Source: Bryoerythrophyllum caledonicum (taxonomy: Eukaryota; Streptophyta; Bryopsida; Pottiales; Pottiaceae). From it: DNA of 64,000 nt. Positions 999 to 62,467 of the stretch are shown one piece after another (the first letter of the stretch is position 1; every line of letters starts with the position of its first letter). Location: positions 4,543,519 to 4,607,518 of the forward strand of contig OZ020521.1 of the NCBI GenBank assembly GCA_963971425.1, written 5' to 3'. The notes under the pieces are model-generated. The model was not told the DNA's origin. It saw only the letters and a list, made by a program, of their open reading frames with translations, and ran no database searches. Position numbers and translations under genes: made by a program.

Positions 999-1958
999 TT
1001 AACCCCTAGAGGATTGTGACAATTTTACACCAAAAACACTTCAAAATTGTTGATTCTAGTGCAATGACTAAGGAGAGAAACAAAACCTTAAATTTATAGT
1101 TTTGATCGTAGGATCTCAATTAATACTTATTAATTAACATATTCACAAAATTTCATAAACTTTGACGGCACAAATTGAAAGATTATAGTGTTTGAAGTCA
1201 TGGTAATGGTTCAATTTCTTCCGTGCATCAAGTGGATCAGCAGACTTTGACTTCCCTTAGTATCAAATTTTTGCACTACATAAGGTCTAAATCTCTTACC
1301 ATTGTGTTAAGCATGATGTTATTTCCTTCACACCAATTTTTAGAGGTAGAAAAGGGGTGTAGCATATTCAAAACAAGTGTGCAAGGAGTGGAGGTTTAAA
1401 AATTGAGTATTCACGTTTTAAATCTTTGTGAACTTAATATGTCTTCAAATGATAATCCAAACGGTCAATAAGAAGGTTCTCACCACATGTTGAAAAAATT
1501 AAAAGTCAAAACTATGAAGATCTCTAGGTTTTATGTAGAAAATAAGAAGTTTTTTTCCCTGATTGCAGGAATGTGTAAAAATGTTTCACTTGAGTTTATA
1601 TGTTTTTTACATTAAAGACAAGAAATGTTTTTTGACAACTTCATAAAAAGTAATATTCTTTATATGTATGAAACATCTCAATGTCAATAGAAACTTTTAG
1701 CAAAATTTCTGAGCTGCCCGGAGTACCAGTTTCTAACTTTGAATGACACCAACTTTCAAACCATAAATCCAAAATTATAAAAAAATTAAATTAAAATTTA
1801 AAAAATATATATATATATATATATATCTCCTCAAAGCTCTTATCAAGGACAATCTAATATAAAAATTTCCAAAAAAAAGAGATTTTTTTTCAAATTTTAG
1901 AAACTTGCCCGACATCAAAATTGTCCCCCTAAGGGACACTTGGTCCTTCAGGGGTTAA
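999..1958 (+). mobile_element. TTAA-flanked non-autonomous DNA transposon, copy A
   Basis: A 952-bp element (1,003-1,954) lies between two TTAA tetranucleotides at 999-1,002 and 1,955-1,958. Its left end reads CCCCTAGAGGATT and its right end, on the opposite strand, CCCCTGAAGGACC, so the termini are inverted repeats with a few mismatches. The interior matches the other long copies of the family (for example 23,762-24,694 in the same orientation and 22,744-23,668 inverted). It has no transposase ORF. A TA dinucleotide run sits inside at ~1,806-1,828. The TTAA flank and CCC-start termini are typical of the piggyBac superfamily; the superfamily assignment is inference. Confidence 0.75.
1806..1828. 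repeat. TA microsatellite
   Basis: About eleven uninterrupted TA dinucleotides occur inside TTAA-element copy A. No function is implied. Confidence 0.9.
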
Positions 1959-3405
1959 ATTGTGATCATGGATTGCTTTTGGGCTAGCCGCTTCCGGCTA
2001 CAAACGCTCGTTTATGCCAGGTAACCACTCCAACTCAGTCTTCAAGGTGTCTCTAACAAACGCAAGAGCGTCAGATGCGTGTAGGTGCTTTGCTCAAAGT
2101 AGGATGCTTCAGATTGACTGATGCGCTACAAGGTAAGATTAGTTGCCAAGAGGTACTCTCAAGTTGCAGGAGTGGACTTTCTAGAGACGTTTGCTCTCAT
2201 TGCCACATTCACCACCACGAAGTGCATTTTTGCACTTGGAGTGGCTTTAGACTTGAAGATTTAAAGAATAGAAACATTGACCAAGGCAATGGATTTGCGA
2301 GAAGATAACTACTTGCAAAATGGTAGTGTTAGAGTTCAATAGCTGCTCGTAGTTGATACAACATTGTAAATAGTTGAGATAGATTTAGAGAGGAAATTAA
2401 AGTGGAGAAAATGGAGAGAGGTGAAAGAAACTTGAAGTAGTCACATGTATATTGGCAAAGGTTGTTATTAATTAGTACCATAAGTAAAGGTCTTCAAAAG
2501 AAGGTAATCTCACTCCAAGCATTGTTTGTAATACCTTGTGTGTTTCATTTGCTTGTACAACCATTTCTCTACTTCTATTGAACACCAATACAATTCATCT
2601 CTGCCTTTAGTATACATGACCCTTCACTTGTTTGTTTATAAGTTTGATTGAATGTATTTTATCTCCTCTTTTGTTTTGTATCAATTAAAAATATTAATTT
2701 TGGATTTCTTAATGGTTATTTTTTTCCTTTTACAAATCATCTTTCCATTATAAAAAAATTAGATACTTAAATGCATTCAATTCATTTTTCAATTTTCAAT
2801 AAAAAAATACTTCAAATTATAACAGTCTATAGCATATTATTCCTCATTTATGCTCAATAAGCTCCATGCATAAGGAGCATTTATTGACTTGTGTATGTCA
2901 TCAATGGACCCTATAATTATAGAAGTGGCATGGAAACCATTAGTTAAAACATGCCCACTTTTTGACGATAAACTAAGATGATAACATTCTCAATGATTTT
3001 GTAGAGATGTTGGTTGTCTCTGGCTTGGCGGAGGCTCCCAACCCTTGTCATCCATCAAGCCCACCCATCATGATCCTTGGTAATTTCTTTTGTTAGAGTC
3101 GCCTTCCTTGATTTAACTTTATGTTAGAATTAAATTCTATATGGAAGCCAATATAGTGTTGCACAATGTCTAATGATGTCAACATGGTTAATACAGCATA
3201 AAGCTTATCTCCGACAAAACTATAAGATTTCCAAGACGCTCTTTATTACTTGACGCCCCTGACATCCATTCAACCATTGGCAGCCTAATGGTGGTTCAAT
3301 TTGTCGAGCCCAGGCCCGGGAACGATACTCCCAACCCACTTTCTAAGTGCCAATGCGATTGCTCTCATTTAAAAAAAGTATTATTTTCCGCTATCTAGGG
3401 CTACT
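1959..3405. other. Intergenic, no supported gene
   Basis: A 77-codon open frame at 2,075-2,308 (plus) has a real ATG and several Cys/His residues, but no recognised domain and no neighbouring exon. Nothing else in this stretch looks coding. Confidence 0.4.
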
Positions 3406-4447
3406 TTAACCCTTGAAGGACAATCCCTATAACTGCGTGACCAAATTCGACCACTTCTGGCCTTGCTCATCTTTGAAGAGTTAACACTATGATGCCCAAC
3501 TATTGTGACCCTTGATTTATCATCATCAAAGGAGCTTGACAAGATCAAACCATTGACACTAGTCAGTAAGAGCATCTCCACTGAGGCACTGGGCCTCGGC
3601 AAAAATGAGCAAGATGGCGTGCACAAAGAACAACGCCACCCTAGTGCAGAGTTGTTGCTTGCTGTCATGTTCCGTGTCTTCGCTTCGGCCTTGCGAAGTC
3701 TCAAGAAAAATTTGGACTACGGCAGGTGAATGCCAATTTTTGCCGTCCACACTCACCACTCCCATGCCGCTATGTGGCAACGTGGGAGTGGTTGCAACGA
3801 TCTTCACTACAATTAACTGCATTTTTCACTGCGCAAGGCACTTGTGGTTGTGTGCGGTGGATTAGTTTCCATCTGCAATAGTTTTGTTCCCATCTGCAAC
3901 AGTTTCGCATAGAGCACAAACCTTGGCATGGCATTGGGCAACCAAACCCTTGTCTTGCGGTGTGAAATTAGCACGGAGCACAGTTGGCAAGGCTCTTAAC
4001 GTGAGGACATCCCCGAGCATTTATGTCTGGGCGGGCGTCTCTATGAATGGAACTCTTGATTGTGAGTCTGAACAACTTGCTTTTCATAAACTAGAGTTGT
4101 TTCCACAATAATTATTCTATCTATCAAAGTAATTTCTTAGAAACGAGGGTTGCTTCCACATTACCTAGTCCATAGACTCAACTATTCTAATAATTACAAA
4201 CCTTGTTAATCTGCACTCAAAAGTTTAATCAAGGACATAGAGGTGGAAGACAATAGGCATCTATTGAGACCATTGCCACAACAATCAGTGCAAACATCGG
4301 CGAGCTACAATGATCTCCGTAAAGTGGGATTGTGATTTTCATGTTGAAATGTACCCAAAGCATAGATGTCATTCTACATGATCTAGAACACTAGAACACT
4401 CATAGATTCTCACAAGCCAAAAAAGCTCATCGGCCTTAAAGCGTTAA
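3406..4447. mobile_element. Candidate TTAA-flanked element, divergent subfamily
   Basis: TTAA at 3,406-3,409 is followed by CCCTTGAAGGACAATCC. TTAA at 4,444-4,447 is preceded by a sequence whose complement reads CGCTTTAAGGCCGATGAG. The same type of right end occurs on the 148-bp element at 31,930-32,077. Short overlapping ORFs at 3,381-4,111 are not convincing genes. The ends fit the family but the interior was not matched to another copy. Confidence 0.4.
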
Positions 4448-4720
4448 GTTACATCCAAACTATCAAATACTTCAGTGGCAAATACTGAGTCTATGATGAA
4501 TTGAAATTGCTTAATATTGCTTTTCCCTGAGTACGATTCTAGGATTAGAAGGACCTGCATTCAAGACTCTCGTTTCATAAACCTTGACTGATGTCACATG
4601 ATGAGCACAATGTTGTTCATAGTCGTCTGCTCAAGTATATTGATCATGGTTCCCTTAAAATGGGTCCTCAAATGTATCACATCTGCCTCCATAATGTCTA
4701 CGTATGACTCACTCGCAGCG

Positions 4721-5228
4721 AAAGTTCACAACGATGACAAAACATAACTTTCTAGAGCATCTGCGAAGTAATATTCAACTTGCTGCCACAATAGAATGGA
4801 TAAATCACCACGTGACAGCGACGGTGGTTCTGTTTGCTATAGAGAAAAACCGGAAAGAAACCTAGCCAGGCTTGAGGATCACTTTCCCGGCAGAGGAAAG
4901 TTGACAATGAAGACAGAAACATAGCTTTTCTAGAGCACAAGTCTGTGGATCTGCAAAGTAATATCAAACTCGCAGCCATATTAGAATGGATACAGCGACA
5001 GTGGTTCTGATTGCTGCAAGAAAAAACCGGAAAGGAACCTGGCCGGGCTAGAGGATCACTTTCCTGGCAGAGGAAGTTCACAACGATGCCAGAAATATAA
5101 CTTTCTAGAGGTGCACAAGTCTGTGCATCTGCAAAGTAATATCAAACTCGCTGTCATTTTAGAATGGATACAGCGACGGTGGTCCTGTTTGCTGCAGAAA
5201 AAAACCGGAAGATGGCTTTCCTGGTAGC
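4721..5228. repeat. Three tandem ~176-bp repeats directly 3' of the P450 gene
   Basis: Three imperfect direct copies start at about 4,721, 4,897 and 5,074, each beginning AAGTT(C/G)ACAA and containing TTTCTAGAG, GCAAAGTAATAT, TAGAATGGATA, a GCGAC(G/A)GTGGT core and AAAACCGGAA. The third copy is shortened and runs to within a few bases of the P450 stop codon. The array would be in the 3' UTR or just downstream of that gene. A 109-codon minus frame across the array (4,752-5,081) is a product of the repetition and not a gene. Confidence 0.8.
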
Positions 5229-21506: not shown

Positions 21507-22522
21507 GGGCCGCTTCACACCGAGCCAAGTTGAGAGGCCAATCGTCAAAATTTTAGCTCAAACAATGGTGAGAGGCCAAACTTTTAGGCTAAAAAATACA
21601 TCAAATAATTAAAATTGAAGGAAGTTGATGGCCTCTCGAAGGAGGTTTGGGTCAGCTAAGAGCGGCGATCTATGGGCCGCTTCACACTATGCCCAAGTCA
21701 AGTGACCGTCCATCAAAATGAGTGGCCACACTATGGCAAGAGGCCAAACTTTTTTGCCAAAAAAATCCATAAAATAATATAGATTGAAGGTTTGGTTGGT
21801 CGTGGTGTGAAGCCCCAAAGCCCAAGTCCAAAGTCCAAACCCCATTTCATTATGCCAAAAAAATTAGCTAAAAAAATCAGCCAATAAAATCAGCCAAAAA
21901 AATCAGCCATAAAGAATCAGCCAATAATAATCAGCCAATAATAGTCAGCCAAAAAAATCAGCCAAAAAAATCAGCCATAAAAAATCAGCCAATAATAATC
22001 AGCCAATAATAGTCAGCCAAAAAAATCAGCCAAAAAAATCAGCCATAAAAAATCAGCCAAAAAATTCAGCTTTTTTCTTCTAGCGGTCTAGATCTTGTCA
22101 GATTTTGATTATTTATTTGGGTAAGCTATAATGAGCGACCCAAGTTTTGCTCGAGAGGCCGTCGCTTTGGTGCCAAAACAACCCAAAAGTGTTGCCATGT
22201 AGGACAACGGTCTTTGGAATGTGGGCACAAGTGTGAAGGCCCAAAGTCTGGACTTTGGCCATCCTAGCAATCTCATTGGTGGAAATCGACAGCCACTCGA
22301 CTTGGCCACCAAGTGTGAAGCGGCCCTAAGTTTGCACTAGAGAGGCCATCACTTTGACGCCAAAACTCTCTAAAAGTGCTGCCATATAGCCACACTAGAG
22401 GATAATGACATTTGGACTTTGGCCTCTGGTGTGAAGGCCGAGAGGCCAAACTTTGGCCATTCTCAGAATATCATTAGTGAAAATCGATGGCCTCTTGACC
22501 TTGGTCTCTGTGTGAAGCGGCC
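21507..22522. mobile_element. Nested elements with GGGCCGCTTCACAC termini
   Basis: An outer pair of inverted termini lies at 21,507 and 22,522 and an inner pair at 21,674 and 22,326. All start GGGCCGCTTCACAC (the outer right end has one change). The inner termini stay similar for ~40 bp and continue into a CCAAGTC-AGTG segment. The interior holds the AATCAGCC minisatellite. The arms contain several direct copies of GAGAGGCCA-type motifs. The layout fits one element inserted in, or tandemly duplicated within, a relative. TAT/TAA beside the inner ends could be a decayed 3-bp duplication (PIF/Harbinger-like), which is weak. Confidence 0.6.
21853..22070. repeat. AATCAGCC minisatellite with a higher-order period
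   Basis: There are ~16 units of AATCAGCCAA(A/T)AA, 12-16 bp each. A block of about 66 bp containing the variants GCCATAAA, GCCAATAATAA and GCCAATAATAG repeats twice, which indicates secondary amplification. It lies inside the nested GGGCCGCTTCACAC element. Confidence 0.85.
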
Positions 22523-48128: not shown

Positions 48129-48544
48129 TCCAATAGGACGTATACACCAAGACCATCTGTCCGCGTCCAACATCCGCATCTTGCATTCCGTCCGCGCCCC
48201 AAGTGCCCACCCTGCACTTTCATTCATGCCAAGACGTCCGTGCCCTATCCATCCGTCTGCGCCCAACGTTCATTCCCTGCCCTTCTGTCCGCACCTTGAT
48301 GTAGATGTCCGCGCCCTGACCTTTTGTTTGCGCCCCACTAAAATGATGTCCGCACCATGTCTTTTATCGGCGCCCTATCCCACGTCCCCGTCCCTACAAA
48401 TTCCGTCCCCGCCCAACGTTCTTTCTGGCCGCCAAGTTGCCCTTTTTTACCTTATCAAACAGTCAACTACATATTGACAACATCGGACGGGCGGGACCGC
48501 TACTGGACGGGTGAACCGGACGTTCGCTCAGTATAACAACCCTG
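48129..48544. mobile_element. End of a second hAT-like repeat-rich element
   Basis: Degenerate GTCCGCGCCC-type repeats (48,129-48,440) lead into a GGACGG-rich subterminal stretch that ends ACAACCCTG at 48,544. That is the same terminus, with the same GGACGG subterminal motif, as the left end of the 57,342-61,444 element read in reverse. The copia integrase frame starts immediately to the right. The partner terminus was not found, so the element is incomplete or its other end has diverged. Confidence 0.55.
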
Positions 48545-56082: not shown

Positions 56083-57341
56083 TTACACACTGTAGATATT
56101 TACATCATGACACCGTTGCTTATCTGGATCATGCTTATAACTCCCATTTTGTTGTTTTTCCAAGGCACAACCTTCACAAATGGTTCGATCATGTTGTTCA
56201 TCATGGATAATAGGAAAATCTAGTACAGACTTCTTGGTAAACATCTGATGCGTGGTATTAGTGTTTACGTGATTCATTCGCTGATGCCATAGCCCATAGG
56301 GCACTTATACTTTGTTTTATAACAAGATCATCAGGATTCAAAGAAGTAGCAATCTAAGCCACTGAATCAGGAGAGATCACCTGAAACGACATTAGAAACA
56401 ACTTCCCTTGTCTGGTGTCTTCCATAACTGTTGGTCCATGTCATGCGTCTAATTTTAAAGTACAAGTTGAACCACTAGATGTGAACGATAGACCCCTTTC
56501 TATGCCAAGGCCTATCCAGAAAAGATTACGTTTCAGCTGAGGCACAAATAACACATTCTCAAGTGATCCTCGTTTACTAGCGCCCTTGATGTTTCAAAGT
56601 ATACGGATTGTCCCTATTCCCGGAACGTGAAGCTTGCGATTGACTGCCACAGACGCAAACCAGGAACCTTTAGGGATTGATTTAAATGTTGAAAACCAAA
56701 ATTGCTTATCGGTAATGTGTTCTGTTGCACCAGTATGTCCAAATCAGAGGTAAGAAATCAATTCCACTGACAGAAAAAGCCGCAAAATTTGCAGATATTA
56801 CTGTGAAAGCATAGTCCTGGCAGGAGGAATCTCCACACATATTCTGGTCAGATGACGCACGATCTTGGTCAGAGTGAACTGTGGTAACTGCACACGCATA
56901 GCTCCTCTGATAAGATTGTTTGCCCCTGTCGTGATGATAATCACGAGGGGCTGTCTTCATGAAGATTGTCGAGATTGCCTGGGATCATTGCGAGACTGCC
57001 TGGAGTTGTGCTGAGACTGCTTGGATTCGTGCCGAGGTTGCATGGAATCATACTTTGAACGACTAGTATGACTTTCCGTCCGATCACGATAATCATAAGG
57101 TTGGTTTGGATCTGGTTCAGTACAGTCTCTGGCCCAATGACCATATCCACCACATTTATAGCAGACACTGTGGGATTTCAGTTCTTTCACATAGAGGTCA
57201 TCATGTTCCCATTTGAAAAGCTTCGTCACCTTCTTTGTTACAGGTTGTGACTGGTTGAACCGTGAAATAAGCCGTGTCAATCAAATTCTCTTTATCCAGT
57301 TGATTTAGGAGATGCTCCTGCTGTAATAACCGAGTAGTAAT
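56083..57341 (-). pseudogene. Copia element 2: gag C-terminus, protease, gag-pre-integrase
   Basis: The zinc knuckle CYKCGGYGHWARDC lies in the 57,280-56,957 frame. A decayed protease site follows (HTGATEH near 56,720-56,745, where DTG or DSG is expected), in a frame shifted from its neighbour. Gag-pre-integrase has LWHQRMNH and CEGCALEKQ (56,304-56,083). It continues the gag at 61,445-61,973 after the hAT-like insertion. Confidence 0.75.
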
Positions 57342-57499
57342 CAGGGTTGTTCGGCCGTCCGTCCGGTAGTCTCCGTCCGTCTCGCTGTCCGTCCGATAGA
57401 GATTGTTGTCCGTCCGATAAGGGTCAACGCTGGTTTGACCATGACTAGAGGTAAATCAATTTACCCACTGCCACGAAGGCAAATATGTGGCTGACACGT

Positions 57500-58450
57500 C
57501 AACAAGAAGGTCGCGCGCGTACGAACAAGGGCTGGGCGCGTACCTAAGACGGCCGCTCGCGTATCTGACAAGGCCGCGCACATAAGTCAATTTTTTTTTT
57601 TTTTTCCTTATACGCGCCCAGCCCTTGTAAGCATGCGCCCGACCTTTTGGATCGGGCACGTACGTACAAGGGTTGGGCGCATACGTACAAGGGCTGGGCG
57701 CGTACAAACAAGGGTTGCGCACGTTCAAGACAGGGCCGCGCGCGTACGCCAAAAAAACAAATAAATAAATAAATAAAAAATAAAAATAAAAATAAAAATA
57801 AATAAATATATATATATATATATATATATTTTCCTTTGTATGCACCCAGCCCTTGTAAGCATGCGCCCGACCTTTTGGATCGGGCGCGTACATACAAGGG
57901 CTGGGCGCCTAGGCGGGAAAAAAAATAAAATAAAATAAAAATATTTTGGCCGTGCGCGCGCGGCCTCAATAGGTACGCGCGCGTACGTACTAGGGCTGGG
58001 CGCGTACGCCAAATAAATAAAATAAATAAAATTTGGGCGTACGCGGGCGGCTTTGGTAGGTCCGCGCGCGGCCCTTTTAGGCACGCCCCCAACCCTTTTA
58101 AGTTCGCATCCAACCTTTTTGAGTATGCGCCCTACCTCCTTAGGTACCCACGGAACCTCTTTAGATACACGCCCAACCCCTTGAAGTATGGGCCGAACCC
58201 TTGTAAGCATGCGCCTAACCTTTTAAATCGGGCGCGTACGTTCAAGGAATGGGTGCGTGCGATTTTCTTTGTTCTAGGGACGAGCTTAGCCCTTGTAAAC
58301 ATGCGCTTGACCTTCTAGATCGGGCGTGTACGTACAAGGGCCGCACGCGTAAAATGTTTTAATTTTTTTTTTAAAAAAAAATTTAAATTTTTAAAAAAAA
58401 AAATTTGGCGTACGCACGCGGCCCCAATAGGTACGCGCGCGTACCTACCA
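57500..58450. repeat. GCGCGTAC-rich array, left side
   Basis: Degenerate repeats of CGCGCCCAGCCCTTGT, CCGACCTTTTGGATCGGGC and GGGCTGGGCGCGTACG alternate with A- and T-rich runs, including a TAAA/TAAAAA/TA block at ~57,755-57,830. Long open frames here (for example 57,544-58,113 minus) come from the repeats. Confidence 0.85.
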
Positions 58451-58462
58451 GGGGTGGGCAAA

Positions 58463-59880
58463 ACAAATAGAACTCGTCCCCTGTTATTTTGTGTTTTTAA
58501 AATTCCTTTATCTCGTTGAATTATTATTAGTGGCATAATGAAGATGTGGACCATGTATAAGCCTCAGTCCTCCTTGTGCCCACCTTTCCTAAGCTTTTGT
58601 CCACCCCTTATATATATAATGTTGATTCCTTTTCACCAATGTCATCTATTGTCTTTCTTTGATTAAAAGTGTCGTCATTAACTATTATTGATTTCAAAGA
58701 TAGTCAAGGTGTGTGTATCTTTTTATTTACTTTTGGCAATCATGTACACAAAATCATTTATATTTGGCCATGGGCTATGGCCTATTTTAACAAGGATTGC
58801 AACAATTGTTCATGTAATAATTGAATCAAATATTGTAAATGTCATTATAGACTCTAATTTCTTTTTAACCATAGAATGTGTCTTGTGTTCTTGCTTTTTA
58901 TTTTAAGCAATTGACACAAAATTAATTGTAATGATACTAAGAAGAAGTTGATGCGTTCAAATGTAAATATAAATGTCGTATATGCATCTTCATACCTTAT
59001 ACAACTTGCTAAGGTTTCATTGATACATCTAATTATATATCTCAATCACAATTTCTAGTTTAAGCATAGTAAGCATAATGTAAATAATTTGTTTAAGAAC
59101 TTCAAGTATTTGAATGTCCTTACTTTAAATGTCCTTTCTTTAAATGTCCTTTCTTTAAATGTCCTTACTTAAATGTCCTTACTTTAAATGTTTTTATTTG
59201 AAATGTCCTTATTTAAAGTAAGGACATTCAAATACTTGAAGTTCTTAAACAAATTATTTACATTATACTTACTATGCATAAACTAGAAATTGTGATTGAG
59301 ATACATAATTAGATGTATCAATGAAACCTTAGCAAGTTGTATAAGGTATGAAGATGCATATACGACATTTACATTTACATTTGAATGCATCAACTTCTTC
59401 TTAGTATCATTACAATTAATTTTGTGTCAATTGCTTAAAATAAAAAGCAAGAACACAAGACACATTCTATGGTTAAAAAGAAATTAGAGTCTATAATGAC
59501 ATTTACAATATTTGATTCAATTATTACATGAACAATTGTTGCAATCCTTGTTAATTAAATAGGCCATAGCCAATGGCCAAATATAAATGATTTTGTGTAC
59601 ATGATTGCCAAAAGTAAATAAAAAGTTACACACACCTTGACAATCTTTGAAATCAATAATAGTTAATGACGACACTTTTAATCAAAGAAAGACAATAGAT
59701 GATATTGGTGAAAAGGAATCAACATTATATATATAAGGGGTGGACAAAAGCTTAGAAAAGGTGGGCACAAGGAGGACTGAGGCTTATACATGATCCACAT
59801 CTTCATTATGCCACTAGCAATAATTCAACGAGATAAAGGAATTTAAAAAACACAAAATAGTAGAGGGCGAGTTGTATTCG
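58463..59880. repeat. ~1.4-kb palindrome with ~670-bp arms
   Basis: The left arm is 58,463-59,130 and the right arm 59,211-59,880, near-perfect complements. The same 63-residue frame can be read from both arms in opposite directions (59,045-58,854 minus and 59,296-59,487 plus). The 80-bp spacer is made of GTCCTTACTTTAAAT-like direct repeats. Transcription would yield a long hairpin RNA. Confidence 0.92.
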
Positions 59881-60059
59881 TGTTGAGCATAGATGTGTAT
59901 GCAAAGGAGATTGATAAGTGTGCAAGGAGGCATGCGACTATATAAGAAGGGCGGGTCACTACAAAAGAACAGCGGGCGGGTAGACAAGGAGTGAGGGCAA
60001 ATTAGTGAAAAAGGAGGGGGGAAAGAGGGGGGGATTATGGGGCAAGCGATTCAAGAGGA

Positions 60060-61250
60060 TCGCACACATGAGAGTCGAGTTGGCAAATTGGAGGGTTGCG
60101 CGCGTACGGTGGAGGATCGCGCGTGCGGTAGAGGCGCATATGCTTAAATATTATAAAAAATTTAAAAGAGTGTGCGGCCCTCAAGAGCGCACACACGCAA
60201 CCCTCCAAGTTGTGGGCTCGACCTTTTAATGTGTGATCCTCCTTCGATTGCTTGCCCCATAATCTCAGGCGCGTACTCATTCGATCGCGCGCGCGCGCGG
60301 TCGCTAAATGAGGGTCGAGCGCGTATTAAAAAGGGTTGGGCGCGTACGCATTGGATCGTGCGCGTACTTGAAAGTATCAAGCGCGTACCAAAAAGGGGTT
60401 GGGCGTGTATCTAAAGGCTCCAGCGTGTACCTAAAGGGGTCGGGTGCGTACTGAAAAGGGTCGGGCGCGTACTTAAAGAGCTTCCACTCATGCCTGAAGG
60501 AGTCAGAACGAGCCGGACGCGTACCTTAAGGGGACAAGCGCATTCCCAAGGGGTCTGGCGCGTCCCTAAAGGGGTCGGGCGCGTACCTTACGGGGCTGGG
60601 CGCGTACACCAAGGGGCCAAAGCGTACCTTAAGGGGCCAAAGCGTACCTTAAGGGGCGCCGCGCTTGCCTAAAAGGGCCGCGCGCCTACCTTACAGGGCC
60701 GCGCGCGTACAATTTTTTTAATTTTTTTTTTTTTTTTGGCGTACGCGCGCAGCCCTTGTTCGTACGCGCCCAACCCTTGTTTGTACGCGCCCAACCCTTG
60801 TACGTACCCGCCCCATCCAAAAGGTCGGGCACATGCTTACAAGGGCTGGGCACGTGCAATTTTTTTTTTTTTTTTTTTTTCCGCGTACGACGCGGCCCTT
60901 GTTCGTACGCGCCCCATCCAAAAGGTCGGGCGCATGCTTACAAGGGCTGGGCGCGTGCACAATTTTTTTTTTTTTATAATTTTCGCGTATGCGCGTGGCC
61001 CTGCTTGGTGTGCGCGCGGCCCTTGTTCATACGCGCCCAGCCCTTGATGGTACGCGCCCAACCCTTGTTTGTATGCGCCCAACCCTTGTACGTACGCGCC
61101 CAATCCAAAGGTCGAGCGCATGCTTACAAGGGCTGGGCGCGTACAAAAATTTATTTATTATTTATTTATTTATTTTTATTTTTTTCGCGTACACGCGCGG
61201 CTGTTCTAGGTACGCGCGCGGCCCTTCTAGGTGCACGCCCGACCCTATGA
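60060..61250. repeat. GCGCGTAC-rich array, right side
   Basis: The first half is a ~20-27-bp array with units like AAGGGGTCGGGCGCGTACC (60,380-60,670). The second half has CGCGCCCAACCCTTGT and GCATGCTTACAAGGGCTGGG units that mirror the left array in reverse. T-runs of 12-19 occur at ~60,722, ~60,861 and ~60,963. Confidence 0.85.
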
Positions 61251-61444
61251 TGTGACGTGGAAAGCGGTCTGACGTGTCGGCACACGTGTTTTACTAGGGG
61301 GTAAGTTGAAAATTTGATTTAGGGTTTGTAATGTTTTTTTATACGCAACTATCCGCCAAAAAGTGTTGTCCGTCCTGTCCGTACGTCCTACTGTCCGTCT
61401 GTCCGCTGTCTTTGGGCCCTTGTCCGTCTATGTAGACAACCCTG

Positions 61445-61973
61445 GTAGTAATAGCATTGACAGTTTGTGCTTCGATAGACACATTCGCCCAAGCCGCTAT
61501 AGTACCATTGTAGGCAGGAGGTAAATTCATGATGATTTTTGTGATAATCTGTCTATCAGTAGAGGCTCAACTAGATCCTTTAGGATGCTTGCTTTGTGAA
61601 CTATGCTGTTGATATGGGTTTTAATAGAATCTGTCTTTGTCACCTTATAGTCATTAAAATCTGCATGAATCATGTACACATTTTCTGTTGACTTTTGTTG
61701 ATGGATGGATCTAAGCTGTGCCCGCATCTGAGCAACCGTGTTACACGATATGAGATCCTCCATGACAAACAATGAAACTCCTTGCATAATCAACATCCTC
61801 GTATGATTATTCTTATCCTCCCAGCTTGATATCTGTTCGGGTGTAGAGTCATCTCCTGGTATCTCATCTGTTCCGTCAACTATTCTGGCTACCTTCTTGT
61901 AAGCGAAGATGATATCCATCGAGCTCTTCCAGATATTGAAATTCGTCCCATCAAAGTCCTTGAGGCCAGCCAT
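61445..61973 (-). pseudogene. Copia element 2: gag N-terminal part
   Basis: The ATG at 61,971-61,973 opens a gag frame with FDGTNFNIWKSSMD and a long helical region typical of copia gag. The frame shifts near 61,530, resumes with NLPPAYNGTIAAW, and is then broken at 61,444 by the hAT-like insertion. Its continuation is at 57,280 and lower. Confidence 0.75.
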
Positions 61974-62467
61974 TTTTACTTGTCCATAGCTTGTTCCACA
62001 TAGAAACAGCTATGAAGATACTGTAAATCTTAATGGTTCTAGAGTTTTAATTCTAAGATAGGTATGAAAACCGAAAGATTTCTACTCTGTGTAGAGGTTT
62101 GAAAGGATCAACGAGAATAAAATTCTTCCTCTAAAATCCTAGAGAAGAGAGAACATAGATAGCAATAGAAAGAAAACTAAACACAACAACGTACATGCAT
62201 AGGAAAACACAAAAGTGTGTAATCTATGTAGAGTACAGTAGTGAAAAACATGGGAATAAAACTCTACACTCTCCGATAATTAATCAGGTGCTCAGCCAAA
62301 TAAAAGATATGCTCCACAGGAATACGCCATGGTAAGCAGATGATCAAGAGTTTTGCAGCCGTTCAAGAATGGTGGAATCTCCAAATCCGGTAGAAAATAA
62401 GAAACCCATAAAATTGTCTTTGAATCTTGTGAAAGCAATAGAAAAAGGAGAACTACTAGCCCATAAC

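Follow-up and report, generated by a model that had tools for sequence, protein, structure and literature searches.

Analysis of a 64,000-nucleotide window from the moss Bryoerythrophyllum caledonicum (assembly GCA_963971425.1, contig OZ020521.1, positions 4,543,519 to 4,607,518) revealed a 4103-bp insertion at window positions 57342-61444 that is very probably a non-autonomous member of a large hAT transposon family, in which a palindrome of single origin appears to have been spread by transposition, its arms then being homogenised and its spacer turned. The insertion begins and ends with inverted repeats of 9 bp (CAGGGTTGT, 57342-57350; ACAACCCTG, 61436-61444) and is flanked by an exact 8-bp target-site duplication (TSD), GTAGTAAT; the span 57334-61452 given for it earlier, in a first-pass annotation made from the sequence alone, takes in both TSD copies. 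That annotation had described a coding-free, hAT-like element delimited exactly by such a duplication and inverted ends and containing a giant palindrome, and each part of the description was borne out by the evidence below.

Insertion site and family membership

The end pair of this insertion was the only TSD-flanked inverted-end pair in the window when up to one mismatch in the ends, up to two in the duplication and a spacing of 100-15000 bp were allowed. None of the seven frames tested in the element had a Pfam match at E ≤ 0.1, so that by this test it lacks a transposase gene of its own, and an Rfam search of the window gave no match. Searching the genome assembly (437 Mb, 894 contigs) with the right flank revealed 10 places, window included. 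At four paralogous copia sites (L051, L052, L053 and L054) the flanks were contiguous with a single GTAGTAAT at 86-94% identity, and at the fifth other place read (L055, 72%) the right flank matched only. Because of the 8-bp duplication and these empty sites, we conclude that the window element was inserted by a hAT-type event.

Fifteen copies, the window element among them, could be compared at both ends. Eight carried an exact 8-bp TSD (window, C12a, C1c, C15b, C1b, C15a, L045 and a coding copy on C12), and four carried one with a single mismatch (C10b, C3c, C10a and C1j). The first-pass concern that no other copy might show 8-bp duplications is thereby removed, with 7 of the 14 other copies exact and 4 of the 14 at one mismatch. 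Copy lengths included 3179 bp (C12a), 2963 bp (C1c), 2947 bp (C15b) and 787 bp (L045), and the arm-bearing members measured spanned 2.9-5.7 kb. One 5709-bp member (L044, C1:38799500-38805700) contained about 3.5 kb of other DNA at about 1380-4880, part of which is a long, repetitive, EEEHD-rich frame. The palindromic copy C3a at L041 (C3:25504300-25510000) had clean ends between unlike 8-bp flanks, TGCGCTTC and AGCTATCC, and is perhaps the product of recombination between two elements.

End queries yielded 981 candidates for the 5' end (567 bp) and 1079 for the last 223 bp, 40 being scored for each. A listed arm lay within 6 kb of 21/40 scored 5' ends and 13/40 scored 3' ends, and thus not every family member bears the palindrome.

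The coding copy on C12 (C12:18555088-18558572, 3485 bp) shared both ends with the window element (5' end 89.6%, 3' end 94.2%), had its own exact 8-bp TSD, and encoded a Dimer_Tnp_hAT match at 27.1 bits (cut-off 21.4). A second relative, on C3, showed the 3' end of the family (93.7%) and a frame with DUF659 at 117.8 bits. The C12-type transposase gave 66 scored matches among 2783 genome candidates, with 88-100% identity and in some cases open frames of about 1000 residues; its named relative came from the moss Physcomitrium (62%). A transposase source for the window element plausibly exists in the genome, and hAT transposase from coding relatives would cut and paste the element in trans, reading its ends and perhaps its subterminal arrays. 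In a separate genome-wide search with PF05699, 150 of 1150 candidates were scored; the listed matches exceeded the cut-off, and some frames reached about 1100 residues.

The 8-bp duplication, the short ends starting with CAGGG, the subterminal repeats and the existence of a coding relative with matching ends are shared with Ds-like non-autonomous hAT elements, and the window element can be likened to Ds-type derivatives. Its interior differs from theirs: it is a dispersed palindrome, each arm about 0.7-0.8 kb long, which has apparently been homogenised and flipped between copies. L045 (787 bp, with family ends and an exact 8-bp duplication) is as short as hAT miniature inverted-repeat transposable elements, whose size limit is about 0.8 kb and is exceeded by the 4103-bp window element. 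No report of such a palindromic hAT family was found in the titles and abstract starts of the open-licence literature, for the part of the matches covered.

Origin of the palindrome and its proposed arm exchange and spacer inversion

The longest exact inverted match within the window element was 168 nt, compared with 10-22 nt in 20 shuffles. The palindrome consists of an inner arm pair (58787-59130 and 59211-59554; 344 nt, 99% alike) and an outer pair (58459-58787 and 59557-59885; 329 nt, 95% alike), closed by an 80-nt spacer of 15-bp tandem units. A single-arm query, for which 40 of 123 candidates were scored, revealed 55 matches at 39 places among the matches listed. Both arms were whole at 9 of these 39 loci, one copy (C36) ran off its contig, six had a second arm of 54-531 nt, and 23 had one arm, the last count being an upper bound, since in C15a a 389-nt part of the second arm was found on the far side of 2.0 kb of foreign DNA. 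A family end lay within 6 kb of 25 of the 39 listed loci and not of the other 14; eight of these 14 were read, and all eight showed an end or the stretch corresponding to 59886-60080. The origin of the arm sequence was not found among the 40 of 123 candidates scored. That the palindrome is an artefact of assembly, as the first-pass annotation had allowed, is scarcely credible given whole arms at nine listed loci in different places and with different spacers, even if palindromic C36 sits at a contig end and some family members contain runs of N; these independent copies answer the concern in part.

Comparison of copies revealed that the first 112-113 nt outside the right arm recur inverted outside the left arm in L033, L034, L042, L043 and L037, which implies an ancestral arm of about 788 nt and, in the window copy, a loss at the outer end of the left arm. 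In an alignment of 36 arms from 25 elements (19 left and 17 right, with C1i and C36 not in the set), 6 of 679 columns split left from right arms by majority, all within the outer 185. These columns indicate that the palindrome predates the spread, and it looks to have arisen once.

Within the 11 two-arm elements, left and right arms were 97.3% identical, compared with 95.5% between elements, and none of 20,000 permutations reached the within-element value. In addition, 22 variants were confined to a single element but shared by its two arms, the mean for 110 control pairs being 0.04. The two arms were sisters in four of the 11 elements (C10b, support 0.99; C12b, 0.96; C2b, 0.94; C15b, 0.85). 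Such sister arms would also be expected if the palindrome had formed many times, by inverted insertion or joining of copies, but elements have in common the outer sites at which left and right arms differ, and several copies show the 113-nt asymmetry at the outer side, which makes repeated formation very improbable. Arm homogenisation of this kind can be likened to recombining sex-chromosome palindromes, for which the available text of PMC7023750 describes arm-to-arm gene conversion; the family palindrome differs from these in being small, carried by a dispersed transposon and comparable across copies.

Spacer direction relative to the element was scored in 12 copies, of which seven were forward (window, C7a, C12b, C2b, C3c, C1b and C1i) and five reversed (C3a, C15b, C3b, C10b and C36), with C7a and C2b read from one element end and C1g left unscored for having lost too much of its spacer. 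Both directions were found among the copies with a TSD matching to within one base: forward in the window copy, C1b and C3c, and reversed in C15b and C10b. A tree of relatives was built from the ends, the outer arm segments and the sequence that adjoins the right arm on its outer side, for 25 of 27 elements (C1e and C4a were dropped for too little sequence, and C1b was not included). C3b and C3c, which have opposite spacers, were sisters at an ultrafast bootstrap of 94, and C10b, C2b and C36, with mixed spacer directions, grouped at 88. In the arm tree the arms of C3b and C3c were crossed, the left arm of each pairing with the right arm of the other (0.87 each), as inversion would give. Template switching between short inverted repeats in yeast homogenises arms and inverts spacers, according to the accessible part of PMC8604942; template switching and ordinary arm recombination would both fit the arm and spacer data, which do not separate them.

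Several observations weigh against the reading of a single-origin palindrome carried by a hAT family and later exchanged between its arms. Three of the 15 copies had no matching TSD (C3a with clean ends, and C12b and C9b with damaged ends). The coding C12 copy lacks a DUF659 part and contains 200 N, the 8.4 kb upstream of the C3 relative held no 5' end that could be recognised, and a complete autonomous copy was not found among these two coding relatives examined. The element direction of C3b, C1i and C36 was set solely by unequal outer stretches, the supports of 88 and 94 do not reach the value of 95 customary for ultrafast bootstrap, and the relatives tree includes outer arm sequence. The two arms were not sisters in seven of the 11 elements; C3a and C1g had no private variant common to both arms, the arms of C1g were 93.4% alike (below the between-element mean), and deep nodes were weak in both the arm tree and the end tree. 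Flips and identical arms could also be partly assembly errors, the arms being about 97% alike.

Under the single-origin reading, an ancestor would have acquired the palindrome a single time, each arm then measuring about 788 nt, and transposition would have carried it to other places. Arm-to-arm template switching or recombination would later have homogenised the arms and turned the spacer more than once. More tentatively, the palindrome may be a self-renewing module, in which replication or post-excision gap repair lets the arms copy and the spacer turn.

Palindrome tip, predicted hairpin and GC-rich arrays

Homology ended near the spacer in 14 of the 15 copies examined (the exception being C1j), a count biased by the whole-arm query, which favours full arms; for that reason the palindrome tip as a breakage hot spot was left as a weak candidate. 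C1b contains a foreign repeat unit of about 803 bp, whose bounds were the same or nearly so in most of 40 scored copies and which looks to be a different transposable element nested close to the tip. In C15a the spacer has been replaced, together with the innermost 286 nt of the right arm, by 2006 bp of another repeat. This piece (L056, 44-2049; C15:16096743-16098748) comes from a high-copy repeat (1222 candidates), which in the three donor copies read continues past the left edge, the right edge being the end of the repeat; a truncated insertion or repair filler would fit this pattern. Where one arm is lost near the tip, nested insertion may be part of the cause. Two half elements at C1:44791111-44808409 (L026 and L021), C1a and C1d, lie on the same strand 13 kb apart, with a left and a right arm; they could be the two parts of a single element that was divided at the palindrome tip, and comparison of their foreign flanks gave no match between them.

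If transcribed, the palindrome strand is predicted to fold into one near-perfect hairpin (minimum free energy -1064 kcal/mol over 1461 nt), and double-stranded RNA from it, as the first-pass annotation proposed, is possible. A functional role for such RNA, with diced small RNAs silencing the element's own family and thereby keeping the arms alike, would accord with the single predicted hairpin and with arms more alike within than between copies. We regard this role as unlikely, since homogenisation needs no selection, private changes in both arms show arm-to-arm copying, and up to 23 of the 39 listed loci have one arm. In addition, a comparison at E 1e-5 matched neither the arms, nor the spacer, nor the 59886-60080 stretch to the coding copy, and RNAs from them would not match it either. 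Host function need not be assumed, and any hairpin RNA would arise incidentally from read-through transcription.

The GCGCGTAC core or its complement occurred 11 times in the 5' GC-rich array and 17 times in the 3' array, and was absent from the remaining 59,881 bases of the window. Each array contained both orientations of the core (9 and 2 in the 5' array, 10 and 7 in the 3' array); the GC-rich arrays noted earlier are therefore present, while their description as mirrored holds only roughly. Units of GGGCCGGGCGC type (5' side) and of CGCGCCCGGCCC type (3' side) lie immediately internal to the ends of the coding copy and of the 787-bp member. Because the coding copy has such arrays too, they belong to the subterminal sequence of the family, and those of the window element are a longer form of this region. 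By analogy with the available text of PMC4763223, in which subterminal repeats modify hAT transposase activity, the arrays might do so here.

Foldback elements such as Tetris (as covered in the available text of PMC4079207) resemble the window element in combining large inverted repeats with internal tandem arrays and in being non-autonomous with rearranged copies. The terminal repeats of the window element differ from theirs in being 9 bp, with the large inverted repeat internal and closed by the 80-bp spacer. Galileo is a further foldback element of this type. The first-pass suggestion of a satellite-building transposon, whose GC-rich arrays seed tandem arrays, has a precedent in Tetris of Drosophila virilis (PMC4079207, same text), and the stretch from the 5' end to the left arm varies from 790 to 995 bp across five copies. 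We consider it very unlikely and dropped the element as a satellite source because like arrays are subterminal in the coding copy; they are so in the 787-bp member as well, and the core occurs nowhere else in the window, element-free arrays in the genome not having been searched for.

Window features and meaning of the family

The features of the insertion and its flank are summarized in Table 1. For a host gene, the first match bearing an organism name, which was not the top-scoring match, came from the moss Ceratodon (63%). Elsewhere in the window, a second CAGGGTTGT terminus with GTCCG-type motifs, apparently of another hAT subfamily, lies at 48465-48544 on the minus strand, and no partner end for the terminus at 48544 was found in the window. 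A tandem array of 13-14-bp AAAAAAATCAGCCA units occupies 21854-22070.

Table 1. Coordinates of the insertion, its parts and the adjoining host DNA in the window.
Feature	Position	Strand	Basis
Left TSD copy, GTAGTAAT	57334..57341	.	One copy kept in four empty sites
5' terminal region, CAGGGTTGT end and GTCCGTC-type subterminal motifs	57342..57506	+	Alignment with 9 relatives; 89.6% to coding copy
5' GC-rich array, ~21-bp units interleaved with AT-rich runs	57507..58458	+	Coding copy has like array
Left palindrome arm, 672 nt, AT-rich	58459..59130	+	55 matches at 39 loci, among matches listed
Spacer, ~15-bp tandem units of TTTAAATGTCCTTAC type, forward here	59131..59210	+	Repeat structure; spacer comparison
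Right palindrome arm, 675 nt	59211..59885	-	Self-comparison; copy comparison
Stretch outside right arm	59886..60080	+	First 112-113 nt inverted outside left arm in L033, L034, L037, L042, L043
3' GC-rich array, ~21-bp units	60081..61239	+	Repeat structure; core-motif count
3' terminal region, ending in ACAACCCTG	61240..61444	+	Alignment with 10 relatives; 94.2% to coding copy
Right TSD copy, GTAGTAAT	61445..61452	.	TSD search; empty sites
Host DNA beside insertion, copia-type gag frame	61527..62009	-	PF14223

Long palindromes are unstable and have mostly been studied singly or on sex chromosomes. The family described here appears distinctive in its dispersed internal palindrome, apparently under arm-to-arm exchange. 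A self-renewing module, if that is what the palindrome is, would keep a structure with 0.7-kb arms alive over dozens of insertions, some copies losing an arm at the tip, and the family would then document, in many natural copies, how a palindrome changes over time in a plant. The comparison also counsels caution against calling such a structure a silencing device or a satellite seed without RNA or array data. With a palindrome copied by a transposon, arm conversion, spacer inversion and arm loss may be counted over independent copies of known relationship, and the processing of palindromes by a plant genome would become testable within one species.

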